A stretch of DNA of 37,526 bases from Flavobacteriales bacterium (lineage in GTDB: Bacteria > Bacteroidota > Bacteroidia > DT-38): NCBI GenBank assembly GCA_013214205.1, contig JABSPQ010000037.1:1-37526 (forward strand), written 5' to 3'. Below are positions 6,683-11,903 of the stretch, one piece after another (positions within the stretch are counted from its first letter, which is position 1; every line of letters starts with the position of its first letter). Under the pieces are notes generated by a model. The model was given only the letters and a program-made list of their open reading frames with translations. It had not been told where the DNA came from and did not search any database. A program made the translations under genes and the position numbers.

Positions 6683-7059
6683 AACAAATCGTTCTATCGC
6701 CGTTCCGATTTATCGGAGAGGAGGAAAGTCCGGACAACGTAGAGCTCCATACTTCTTAACGGGAAGGCGCCATGTAATGTGGCGACAGATAGTGATGCAG
6801 AAAATAAACTACCATTACGCTTGCGTAATGGAAAAGGTGAAAAGGCGGGGTAAGAGCCCACCAGTGTATAAGGCGACTTATATAGCTATAAAACCTTATG
6901 GGTTGAAAGGCCAAATAAACCGGGACGGTTCGTTCGCGAACCAAAGAGCTGCTCGCTTTACTCGGAGGGTAGGTCGATATATCCTAACAGCAATGTTAGG
7001 AATAGATAAATGATAGAATGTTCCTTGCGGAATAACAGAATCCGGCTTATAGATTTGTA
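6683..7059 (+). ncRNA. rnpB: RNase P RNA, bacterial type A
   Basis: This is the catalytic RNA that matures tRNA 5' ends. The universally conserved core is present at both ends: GAGGAAAGTCCGGAC at 6721-6735 and ACAGAATCCGGCTTATAG at 7035-7052. P1 is formed by ACAAATC (6684-6690) with GATTTGT (7052-7058). GGGTAAGAGCCCACC at about 6848-6862 and the hairpin GGTTCGTTCGCGAACC near 6927 add support. Ends are set by P1 and may be off by a few bases. Confidence 0.96.
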
Positions 7060-7060
7060 A

Positions 7061-7094
7061 AATGCTGTCATCTTAGGATGGCGGCATTTTTTTT
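7061..7094 (+). terminator. Intrinsic terminator of rnpB
   Basis: AATGCTGTCATC and GATGGCGGCATT form a 12-bp stem (with G-T pairs) around loop TTAG, followed by eight T. It starts immediately after the RNase P RNA P1 helix. Confidence 0.93.
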
Positions 7095-7893: not shown

Positions 7894-8715
7894 TTATTTT
7901 TTAGACTTTATATAAGCCTTAACCATCGAGTTGAAATCGTTGGTTATTGTTTGGAGTACAGTATTGTTTGTCGAAAATTGATTCTTATTAGATTGCTTAA
8001 TTGGTAGAACTTTTAACGAAGTACCCGATAAAAAAAAGGATTCGTAATCAGTCATGTCATTAGTCTTAATACTTATTTCATTTACCACAATCTGATTTGA
8101 TTTACAGATTTCTAAAATCGTTTCTCTTGTAACGCCTGGCAGTACATTGATTGATGGAGTTGTAAAAACCTGTCCATTTTTAACCCCAAAGAAATTAGAC
8201 TTGCTTCCTTCAGTAATTTCACCCGATTCATTTACAAGCAGTATTTCGAATACATTATGCGCAGCAATTAGCTGAGATATTTCATCTTTATATGCCTCAT
8301 TGTTTAACTTGCTCGTTGGGTCTAGTCGAATAACTTGATGCGTTATTACAGACACTCCAAGGTTGTACTCCTCATCATTGGGGTAGTAATGAGGATTTGA
8401 TTGAATAAAGATGTGGTTTTGCTTTAATTCATCTTGAACAACTATAATTTTGATGTTCCCATTCTCAAATTGGTCGTGATTGATTAAAATAGCGATAGAA
8501 CTTTCTATTTCTGCATCATCTGATTTTAAAAAGACGTTAGAGCTTTCGCAAGAATTATGGAGTCGGGCTAGATGTTTTTCAATAAAAAGAGGAACTCCTT
8601 CTATTACCCTAAGTACTTCATAAATGTAATTTTCTCCGTAAAGAGCTGTTTCTGTCTCGTTATTGTTACTAGTGAGATCGCTATTTAGAATGATGTTTAT
8701 TTCTTTTTCCGACAT
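7894..8715 (-). CDS. Class IV aminotransferase (PLP enzyme)
   Basis: A 273-residue fold-type IV PLP enzyme, the group that holds branched-chain aminotransferase, D-amino-acid aminotransferase and aminodeoxychorismate lyase. Visible hallmarks are EKHLARLHNS near residue 46, K136 in TSKLNNEAYK as the likely PLP lysine, EITEGSKSNFFGVKNGQVFT, and PGVTRETILEIC. The exact substrate is not clear; the divergence from textbook IlvE or PabC is large enough that I give no symbol. It is monocistronic, with its promoter in the 8716-8830 region. Confidence 0.85.
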   Translation of the reverse strand: MSEKEINIILNSDLTSNNNETETALYGENYIYEVLRVIEGVPLFIEKHLARLHNSCESSNVFLKSDDAEIESSIAILINHDQFENGNIKIIVVQDELKQNHIFIQSNPHYYPNDEEYNLGVSVITHQVIRLDPTSKLNNEAYKDEISQLIAAHNVFEILLVNESGEITEGSKSNFFGVKNGQVFTTPSINVLPGVTRETILEICKSNQIVVNEISIKTNDMTDYESFFLSGTSLKVLPIKQSNKNQFSTNNTVLQTITNDFNSMVKAYIKSKK

Positions 8716-8831
8716 TTTAGTACTGTTTTATATAGAAAACTATGCTAAATAATAAAATAATTGAAAATAAGAGGCAACCTTTTACATAAAAAGACGTCTT
8801 ATTGTCGTCTTAATAGTACACAACGAAGGAT

Positions 8832-8885
8832 ATTAATGACCCACTGGAGGTCATACCCATAGGTGACAACCGGTGGTTCATTAAT
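8832..8885 (+). promoter_or_regulatory. Structured element with alternative hairpins
   Basis: ATTAATGACCCACTGG (8832-8847) pairs with CCGGTGGTTCATTAAT (8870-8885) in a 16-nt stem with one mismatch and one wobble. Parts of the same arms can form two local hairpins instead: ATGACC/GGTCAT at 8836-8854, and AACC/GGTT at 8868-8878. On the plus strand it is followed by a short terminator-like hairpin at 8924-8947. It could be a leader switch or small RNA, or a palindromic protein site between the two genes. Confidence 0.5.
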
Positions 8886-8923
8886 GTCATTTGAAAATAA
8901 AACGATCAACTTTTAGAAATAGG

Positions 8924-8947
8924 CTCCTTTATTGAAGGGGTTTTTTT
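8924..8947 (+). terminator. Terminator-like hairpin before the cyclophilin-FKBP gene
   Basis: CTCCTT pairs with AAGGGG (one G-T) around a 5-nt loop, followed by seven T (8941-8947). The stem is short. No protein gene ends before it on this strand (the aminotransferase runs the other way), which implies a small plus-strand transcript or an attenuator. Confidence 0.5.
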
Positions 8948-8954
8948 ATTTTTG
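8947..8954 (+). promoter_or_regulatory. -7 box of the cyclophilin-FKBP gene
   Basis: TATTTTTG fits TAnnTTTG and lies 22 bp before the ATG at 8977. It overlaps the end of the T-run of the upstream hairpin. The nearest upstream TTG (8932-8934) is 12 bp away, shorter than usual. Confidence 0.45.
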
Positions 8955-8976
8955 ACGTCTATAGCTAAATAAGATT

Positions 8977-10026
8977 ATGAAAAAGATATTTTACTTAATA
9001 TTCATGTTGTCTTTCATGTTGTCGGCTTGCCCGGAAACTGGACAGGCAGGAAGTAGCGTTGCAAAAGTGATTAAAAAACAACATGGCGAAGGTTTGTACG
9101 CCGCATTTAATACAAACAAAGGGGCTATCATTGTCGCATTAGATTTTGATAAAGTACCCATGACAGTTGGTAATTTTGTTGCCTTAGTAGAAGGCGATAT
9201 GTCGAATGAAGCCAAAGAAGCAGGAGTGCCTTATTACGATGGGCTTTTGTTTCATAGAGTTATTAAAGATTTTATGATTCAAGGTGGCGACCCAGCTGGA
9301 AACGGAAGTGGTGGACCTGGATATAGCTTCCCCGATGAGTTTCACGATAGTTTAAGGCATCTTGGTGGCGGTATTTTGTCAATGGCCAATTCTGGACCAG
9401 CTACTAATGGTAGTCAGTTCTTTATTACACACAAAAGTACACCGTGGTTAGATAATAAGCACAGTGTATTTGGGCATGTAGTTGGCGACTTAAAAATTAT
9501 GAATACCATAGAAAAAGGCGATACCATATTAGATATTCAGATAGTAAGAGTTGGAAAAGCAGCTAAGAAATTTGATGCACTGGAAAGCTTTAATTTTGGT
9601 AAGGAGAATCTAGTCAAGATTCAAGCAGAGAAAATGAAGACAGAAAATGAAGCCTTTTTAACTGTGATTAAAGAGAAGTATGGTGAGATTACAGCTACAA
9701 CAAAAAGCGGTTTGATGTATCAGGTAGTACAGGAAGGCACAGGTAAACAAGCTGGAAAAGGTAGTATTGTAGAGGTGCATTATCAAGGGTATTTAGTAGA
9801 TGGTACCAAATTCGACTCTTCTAGAGATCGTGATAGTCCAATTTCGTTTCCGTTAGGACAAGGAAGGGTTATTAAAGGCTGGGACGAAGGAATCGCTCTT
9901 ATGAAGGTAGGAGGGAAGTACAACTTGTTTATTCCTTATAAAATGGCATATGGCGCAAGTGGTAGGCCTCCAATTCCTCCTAAAGCTAACCTGATTTTCG
10001 AAGTTGAACTGATTAGCGTTAATTAA
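8977..10026 (+). CDS. Lipoprotein with cyclophilin and FKBP prolyl isomerase domains
   Basis: A 349-residue protein joining two unrelated peptidyl-prolyl isomerase folds. Residues 1-18 are a lipoprotein signal (LSAC, lipidated C18), so it should fold proteins in the periplasm. The cyclophilin domain spans about 40-195 with FHRVIKDFMIQGGD and GSQFFITH. A helical linker (about 196-240) leads to the FKBP domain (about 243-349) with VEVHYQGYLVDGTKFDSS and GWDEGIALMKVGG. Such fusions are known in Bacteroidota. It is followed by a strong terminator at 10073, so it is a single-gene unit. Confidence 0.93.
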   Translation: MKKIFYLIFMLSFMLSACPETGQAGSSVAKVIKKQHGEGLYAAFNTNKGAIIVALDFDKVPMTVGNFVALVEGDMSNEAKEAGVPYYDGLLFHRVIKDFMIQGGDPAGNGSGGPGYSFPDEFHDSLRHLGGGILSMANSGPATNGSQFFITHKSTPWLDNKHSVFGHVVGDLKIMNTIEKGDTILDIQIVRVGKAAKKFDALESFNFGKENLVKIQAEKMKTENEAFLTVIKEKYGEITATTKSGLMYQVVQEGTGKQAGKGSIVEVHYQGYLVDGTKFDSSRDRDSPISFPLGQGRVIKGWDEGIALMKVGGKYNLFIPYKMAYGASGRPPIPPKANLIFEVELISVN

Positions 10027-10072: not shown

Positions 10073-10102
10073 GAGCCGATCGTAATGGTCGGCTCTTTTT
10101 TT
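10073..10102 (+). terminator. Intrinsic terminator after the cyclophilin-FKBP gene
   Basis: GAGCCGATC pairs with GGTCGGCTC around loop GTAAT, followed by seven T (10096-10102). Confidence 0.92.
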
Positions 10103-11465: not shown

Positions 11466-11903
11466 ATGACAAAAGCAGATATAGTAACGGCAAAAGGTAC
11501 CATGAAAGTGGAATTTTACGATGCCGATGCACCGAAAACGGTAGCGAACTTTACAAAATTAGCCAAAGATAGTTTTTACGATAACCTTACTTTTCATAGA
11601 GTACTTCCAAACTTTGTAATTCAGGGTGGATGTCCTGATGGAAACGGAATGGGCGGTCCTGGTTACAACATTGATTGCGAATTAGATGGCGAAAATCAAT
11701 ACCACGATAAAGGTGTTTTATCTATGGCACATGCAGGTAGAAATACAGGTGGTTCACAATTTTTTGTTTGTCATAGTAGAGATCAAACCGCGCATTTAGA
11801 TAAAAATCACACTTGCTTTGGTAGAGTTGTAGAAGGTTTAGAAGTGATAGATTTAATTGTAGAAGGAGATAAAATAGAAACAATTAAGGTTACAGAAGAA
11901 TAA
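11466..11903 (+). CDS. Cytoplasmic cyclophilin-type prolyl isomerase
   Basis: A 145-residue single-domain cyclophilin of the short bacterial PpiB type, without signal peptide. The catalytic core is visible in TFHRVLPNFVIQGGCPDG and GGSQFFVCH, with DKNHTCFGRVVEGLEVID toward the end. It speeds cis-trans isomerisation of proline bonds in the cytosol. The start ATG at 11466 follows directly after an AT-rich 50-bp spacer. It lies 15 bp before the DUF3127 gene and is one of three isomerase genes in this 7-kb stretch. Confidence 0.94.
   Translation: MTKADIVTAKGTMKVEFYDADAPKTVANFTKLAKDSFYDNLTFHRVLPNFVIQGGCPDGNGMGGPGYNIDCELDGENQYHDKGVLSMAHAGRNTGGSQFFVCHSRDQTAHLDKNHTCFGRVVEGLEVIDLIVEGDKIETIKVTEE

Follow-up and report, generated by a model that had tools for sequence, protein, structure and literature searches.

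A candidate stand-alone small RNA gene with an ECF-type promoter motif upstream of a cyclophilin-FKBP gene in a Flavobacteriales bacterium

The window, a stretch of 37,526 nucleotides on contig JABSPQ010000037.1 of a Flavobacteriales bacterium, carries a class IV aminotransferase gene and a gene for a 349-aa peptidyl-prolyl isomerase with cyclophilin and FKBP domains, which diverge from a short intergenic region. There is no plus-strand open reading frame (ORF) of at least 100 aa between the aminotransferase gene and position 8977, in agreement with the original prediction, which had stated that no plus-strand protein gene lies upstream. Judged by eye, the N-terminus of the isomerase resembles a lipoprotein signal (LSAC), and its FKBP domain shows a weak, below-cut-off likeness to GldI. 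A second cyclophilin is encoded nearby at 11466-11903, and the class A RNase P RNA is found at 6684-7090 with a strong terminator (7059-7090) at its end. The features of the region are as follows.

7894-8715, minus strand: class IV aminotransferase gene, divergent (ORF and family assignment)
8773-8801, plus strand: predicted ECF-sigma promoter, GGCAACC (8773-8779, -35), N15, CGTCTTA (8795-8801, -10)
8806-8953, plus strand: predicted RNA of about 140-150 nt, placed by promoter and terminator, start at about 8804-8810, end at 8945-8953 in the T-tract
8824-8893, plus strand: long hairpin of 27 pairs from folding, end loop 8855-8862 (8 nt)
8836-8862, plus strand: possible 8-codon frame ATG...TAG over the hairpin 5' arm and loop, the tail of a frame 8761-8862
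8894-8920, plus strand: A-rich linker, 8903-8914 predicted unpaired, 8894-8902 able to pair with the U-tract
8921-8953, plus strand: intrinsic terminator from a terminator scan, stem 8921-8930 / 8934-8943, T-tract 8941-8953
8947-8954, plus strand: TATTTTTG, fitting the TAnnTTTG -7 box, a possible isomerase promoter or mere terminator tail
8977-10026, plus strand: cyclophilin-FKBP peptidyl-prolyl isomerase gene (ORF and family assignment)

The imperfect palindrome that was originally noticed here is confirmed, with arms of 28 nt each (8826-8853 and 8864-8891) that are 79% complementary across a 10-nt gap. The plus strand folds into a hairpin with three small internal loops, the largest being 2 x 2, and four of its 27 pairs are G-U. 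Its energy of -34.5 kcal/mol compares with a mean of -15.8 for shuffled sequences (z -6.43), and none of 200 shuffles reached this stability, whereas the minus-strand fold of the same stretch is at -22.3 kcal/mol (z -2.25) and was equalled by 6 of 200 shuffles. In a scan of the whole window in 5-nt steps, the hairpin was the most stable 76-nt stretch on either strand. A long dyad between divergent genes might also be a DNA operator bound by a regulator common to both of them, as had been proposed, and the repeated words GACGTCT (8793 and 8954) and CGTCTTA (8795 and 8806) would suit such a site. The difference in folding between the two strands, with the G-U pairs, counts against this reading, as do the length of the arms relative to the gap with a terminator behind them and the position of the palindrome downstream of the predicted start site; we regard it as very unlikely.

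It had also been proposed that the palindrome can refold into two local hairpins and thereby work as a leader switch. The local hairpins do exist but are nothing special, because the best short-range fold has only -14.9 kcal/mol, a cost of about 20 kcal/mol relative to the long hairpin, and 212 of 1000 simulated hairpins with the same pairs in random order had local folds at least as good. Mutually exclusive folds are therefore unremarkable here. Moreover, when the nascent RNA up to 8933 was folded, the long hairpin was predicted to form and to leave the 5' arm of the terminator free, and the best fold that paired this arm (8926-8931) upstream was 4.6 kcal/mol worse, so that no built-in, RNA-only antiterminator was found. 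The predicted folds thus give no sign of a switch built into the RNA itself, and the idea of a leader switch is weakened. The 8-codon frame in the hairpin was dropped as a leader peptide, having no run of one amino acid, and is probably meaningless.

The short hairpin followed by T7 (8941-8947), another element of the original prediction, proved to be an intrinsic terminator at 8921-8943, the one site in a scan of 8700-9000 against 0.1 in shuffled sequence. A single match of this kind is not rare by itself, because a simple scan of the first 19 kb gave 8 sites, fewer than in shuffles (11.8). However, the two other sites with the longest stems in these 19 kb mark the end of the RNase P RNA (7059-7090) and that of the isomerase gene (10073-10095). 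The 3' intrinsic terminator expected of a small RNA gene is present. With regard to TATTTTTG in the terminator tail, a TTG stands 12 nt upstream of it, and there is none at the usual spacing from a -7 box. The TAnnTTTG consensus of this box is placed at -12 to -5 in PMC9723704. The same tail also follows the terminators of three other loci (L152-L154), although these were selected with a model of which the tail is part.

The motif GGCAACC-N15-CGTCTTA was first noticed by reading upstream of the hairpin, toward which it points, and it resembles promoters of ECF sigma factors. The -35 element of ECF promoters contains AAC. A CGT box has been reported for such promoters (PMC9723704). Letters and spacing at 8773-8801 fit the ECF form (-35 AAC, -10 CGT(C), fixed spacing) and recur in the genome, and on these grounds we take the motif as a putative ECF promoter; we make no claim that it is unpublished. 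Upstream of the hairpin, the plus strand contains no housekeeping -7 box with at least 5 of 6 letters. An Escherichia-type scan for sigma-70 promoters found 2 against 1.5 expected, and this candidate was rejected. With a matrix of the 12 other copies described below, the site scores 27.7 bits and the next best site of the window 11.2, though the score is partly circular since these copies were found with a pattern derived from the site. Unlike the score, the gene context of the copies is free of this circularity.

A first, looser pattern gave 5 matches in the genome against 12 for a backward control, and three of the four other matches preceded genes whose products are exported. The motif at up to two mismatches gave 28 matches in 5.1 Mb, three of them exact (the present site included), against 19 for the backward pattern. 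Since the controls came so near to or exceeded the true pattern, the total number is weak evidence, and it is the context of the copies that counts. Apart from the site at 8773-8801, the 28 matches comprise 13 just upstream of an ORF, 11 inside ORFs of at least 120 aa, and three outside ORFs (L197, L200, L214), which do not fit. GGCAACC is intact in 14 matches, namely the site itself, 10 just upstream of an ORF and three inside long ORFs; the three further upstream copies have one -35 letter changed. One of the 13 (L187) runs into an upstream extension of the frame that it precedes.

The proteins behind 12 of these 13 copies were tested (L199/L221 was left out). Seven have a sorting domain of the type IX secretion system (T9SS) or SprB repeats above the Pfam cut-off (L217, L218, L220, L223, L224, L225, L227), and in two more (L216, L226) the SprB repeats narrowly miss it. 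In two others (L215, L222) a sorting-domain frame stands just behind the first ORF, which is apparently broken or separate, and one protein (L219) is without a family. The cargo genes at L215 (C277:1928-3253) and L222 (C248:5894-6882) seem to be split, as the sorting domain is in another frame overlapping the end of the first ORF. The columns after CAACC that the pattern left free are T-rich (T in 9, 9 and 11 of the 12 copies), as at 8773-8801. At the third base of the -10 element, 11 of the 12 copies have T or A, and about half of the copies have CGACT instead of CGTCT. The consensus before these SprB-repeat and T9SS cargo genes can be written GGCAACC(TTT)-N15-CG(T/A)CT(T/A)A.

There are at least 150 matches to the type A T9SS sorting domain in the 5.1-Mb genome, a very large cargo set. 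We looked upstream of 60 type A cargo genes, obtained from 63 matches that were taken from the top of a 150-entry list with short frames and cases at contig ends left aside, and found no enrichment of the motif, which occurred once among the 60 regions on the gene strand and once on the opposite strand. This sample was chosen by sorting domain and not by motif, and the motif-carrying cargo genes were absent from it. A general role of the motif as a promoter of T9SS cargo is therefore unsupported; it marks a subset of secreted-protein genes and not T9SS cargo as such. Furthermore, none of the other 12 motif leaders has a terminator-like site by the criteria used here, which distinguishes the present element from them and favours a separate RNA gene.

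Given the strand-specific fold, the terminator and the recurring promoter motif, the stand-alone small RNA has the best support among the three readings originally offered, and we lean, with modest confidence, to the view that 8806-8953 (folding energy -44.9 kcal/mol) is such a gene in an ECF/T9SS-linked regulon. Its main rival is an attenuated 5' leader, in which the ECF promoter would serve the isomerase gene and the terminator would set the passage by read-through, by a protein or by the ribosome. The T-tract ends at 8953 and the isomerase starts at 8977, with 24 nt between them, and a secreted folding helper would suit a T9SS-linked regulon; moreover, 64 structured 5' regions thought to be regulatory are described for Flavobacterium psychrophilum in PMC9723704. 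Against a leader stand the cost of 4.6 kcal/mol and the free 5' arm that leave it without an RNA-only antiterminator, the -7-like box after the terminator, and the lack of a comparable hairpin, by eye, in 20 upstream regions of isomerase relatives and, by a hairpin-only model (R2), in any of 80 named relatives. We consider the leader possible but doubtful.

Searches for relatives of the element gave little. No family among the 4227 of Rfam, the check suggested at the outset, reached its gathering score over the element; the best weak match had E 0.22 and 24.2 bits where 64 are needed. No second copy was found in its own genome by blastn, and a model of the element (R1) found there only the reverse strand of the element and one match at E 0.75. 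Blastn against 149 genomes including its own returned short matches only (60 other genomes at E <=0.1, the best of 43 nt), many of which sit on the terminator side. Similarly, R1 matched 44 of 394 other genomes at E <=0.1 against about 39 by chance, the best 9 scoring mainly through ordinary terminators, and in the same genomes R2 had a single weak match (G046, E 0.005); these searches scored no more than 8 or 12 candidates per genome under strict filters. A looser promoter motif upstream of the 80 named isomerase relatives had one unconvincing match (L076). In the only same-genus genome compared (G001), neither the element nor the aminotransferase was matched, and the isomerase matches were weaker and partial. 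All other genomes compared, including the closest relative outside the genus, share only the class with this lineage. We thus found no credible homologue among the 394 other genomes against which to compare the hairpin for covariation.

A single copy with no homologue found might be what is left of a mobile element, or a hairpin that by chance adjoins a terminator. Plasmid and phage records contained one chance-level match of 26-32 nt each and nothing beyond, an exact 22-mer was absent from viral contigs, and no shuffle out of 200 folded equally well, which makes this origin unlikely. The element might also be the 6S RNA of the lineage, since no 6S RNA was found in the genome by either model (RF00013 at E <=10; RF01685 at E <=0.001, for which the control also had no match) and the element is a single hairpin with a terminator. 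6S RNA has a central bubble that resembles an open promoter complex. The largest internal loop here is 2 x 2, no large central bubble is present, and neither 6S model matched over the element; among the readings weighed, this one is the most improbable.

Returning to the small RNA, an ECF-type sigma factor would initiate at GGCAACC-N15-CGTCTTA, and RNA polymerase would make the 27-pair hairpin and the A-rich linker and then halt at the terminator 8921-8943. By way of the common promoter motif, the RNA would be made while the programme of T9SS and SprB-repeat genes is on. It may act in trans through pairing of its loop or linker or through protein binding; from the common promoter we infer that this action would fall within the same regulon. 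When the 5' end, loop and linker were scored by duplex energy against 12 regulon and 27 window gene starts, they did no better than shuffled sequence (equalled by 77, 156 and 110 of 200 shuffles, respectively). The isomerase gene would depend on a promoter of its own within the terminator tail or on low read-through. We tentatively suggest, as a possibility short of an expectation, that an ECF-sigma T9SS programme has its regulatory arm in this RNA, which would be made together with large SprB-type surface proteins and tune envelope or cargo load in trans, beside a secreted folding helper that belongs to that programme as well.

According to PMC9723704, a CGT-box ECF-type motif of F. psychrophilum (SM6) precedes T9SS genes and also the regulatory RNA Rfp11, which is among the RNAs with strong predicted structure in that species. 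Because that report places a small RNA among ECF/T9SS promoters, the kind of RNA proposed here is already known. Rfp11 and, by prediction, our element are alike in being a small RNA with a strong fold and a CGT-box ECF-type promoter of a class common to T9SS genes, a likeness drawn by description and not by sequence or by the SM6 logo. Most SM6 targets named there belong to the T9SS machinery, whereas the present motif precedes cargo and SprB-repeat genes. For Bacteroides thetaiotaomicron, PMC7366714 gives 49 high-confidence terminator-bearing intergenic small RNAs, such as GibS, 27 of which are strain-specific, and housekeeping promoters for 76 or 52% of the RNAs in its intergenic and antisense classes. 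Our element likewise is intergenic, with a promoter of its own (predicted here) and an intrinsic terminator, but its predicted promoter is of ECF type where theirs are mostly housekeeping. Since so many of those RNAs (27 of 49) are strain-specific, missing homologues are no argument against a small RNA.

MicA, RybB and MicL are sigma-E-dependent small RNAs of enterobacteria. The likeness to them is in idea only, namely that an ECF sigma factor of the envelope would have an arm made of RNA, as the sigma group and the phylum are unrelated and the present element gave no target signal. If true, a trans-acting RNA of the T9SS programme would be a Bacteroidota counterpart of these RNAs. To our knowledge, little is known of small RNAs in Bacteroidota beyond Bacteroides and Flavobacterium. 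The element should offer a testable link between a small RNA, a sigma factor and type IX secretion, and the motif GGCAACC-N15-CG(T/A)CT provides a ready list of candidate co-regulated genes. As a minor observation, the two copies of GACGTCT are 161 nt apart, on both sides of the element, and those of CGTCTTA, located at the predicted start, are separated by 11 nt.
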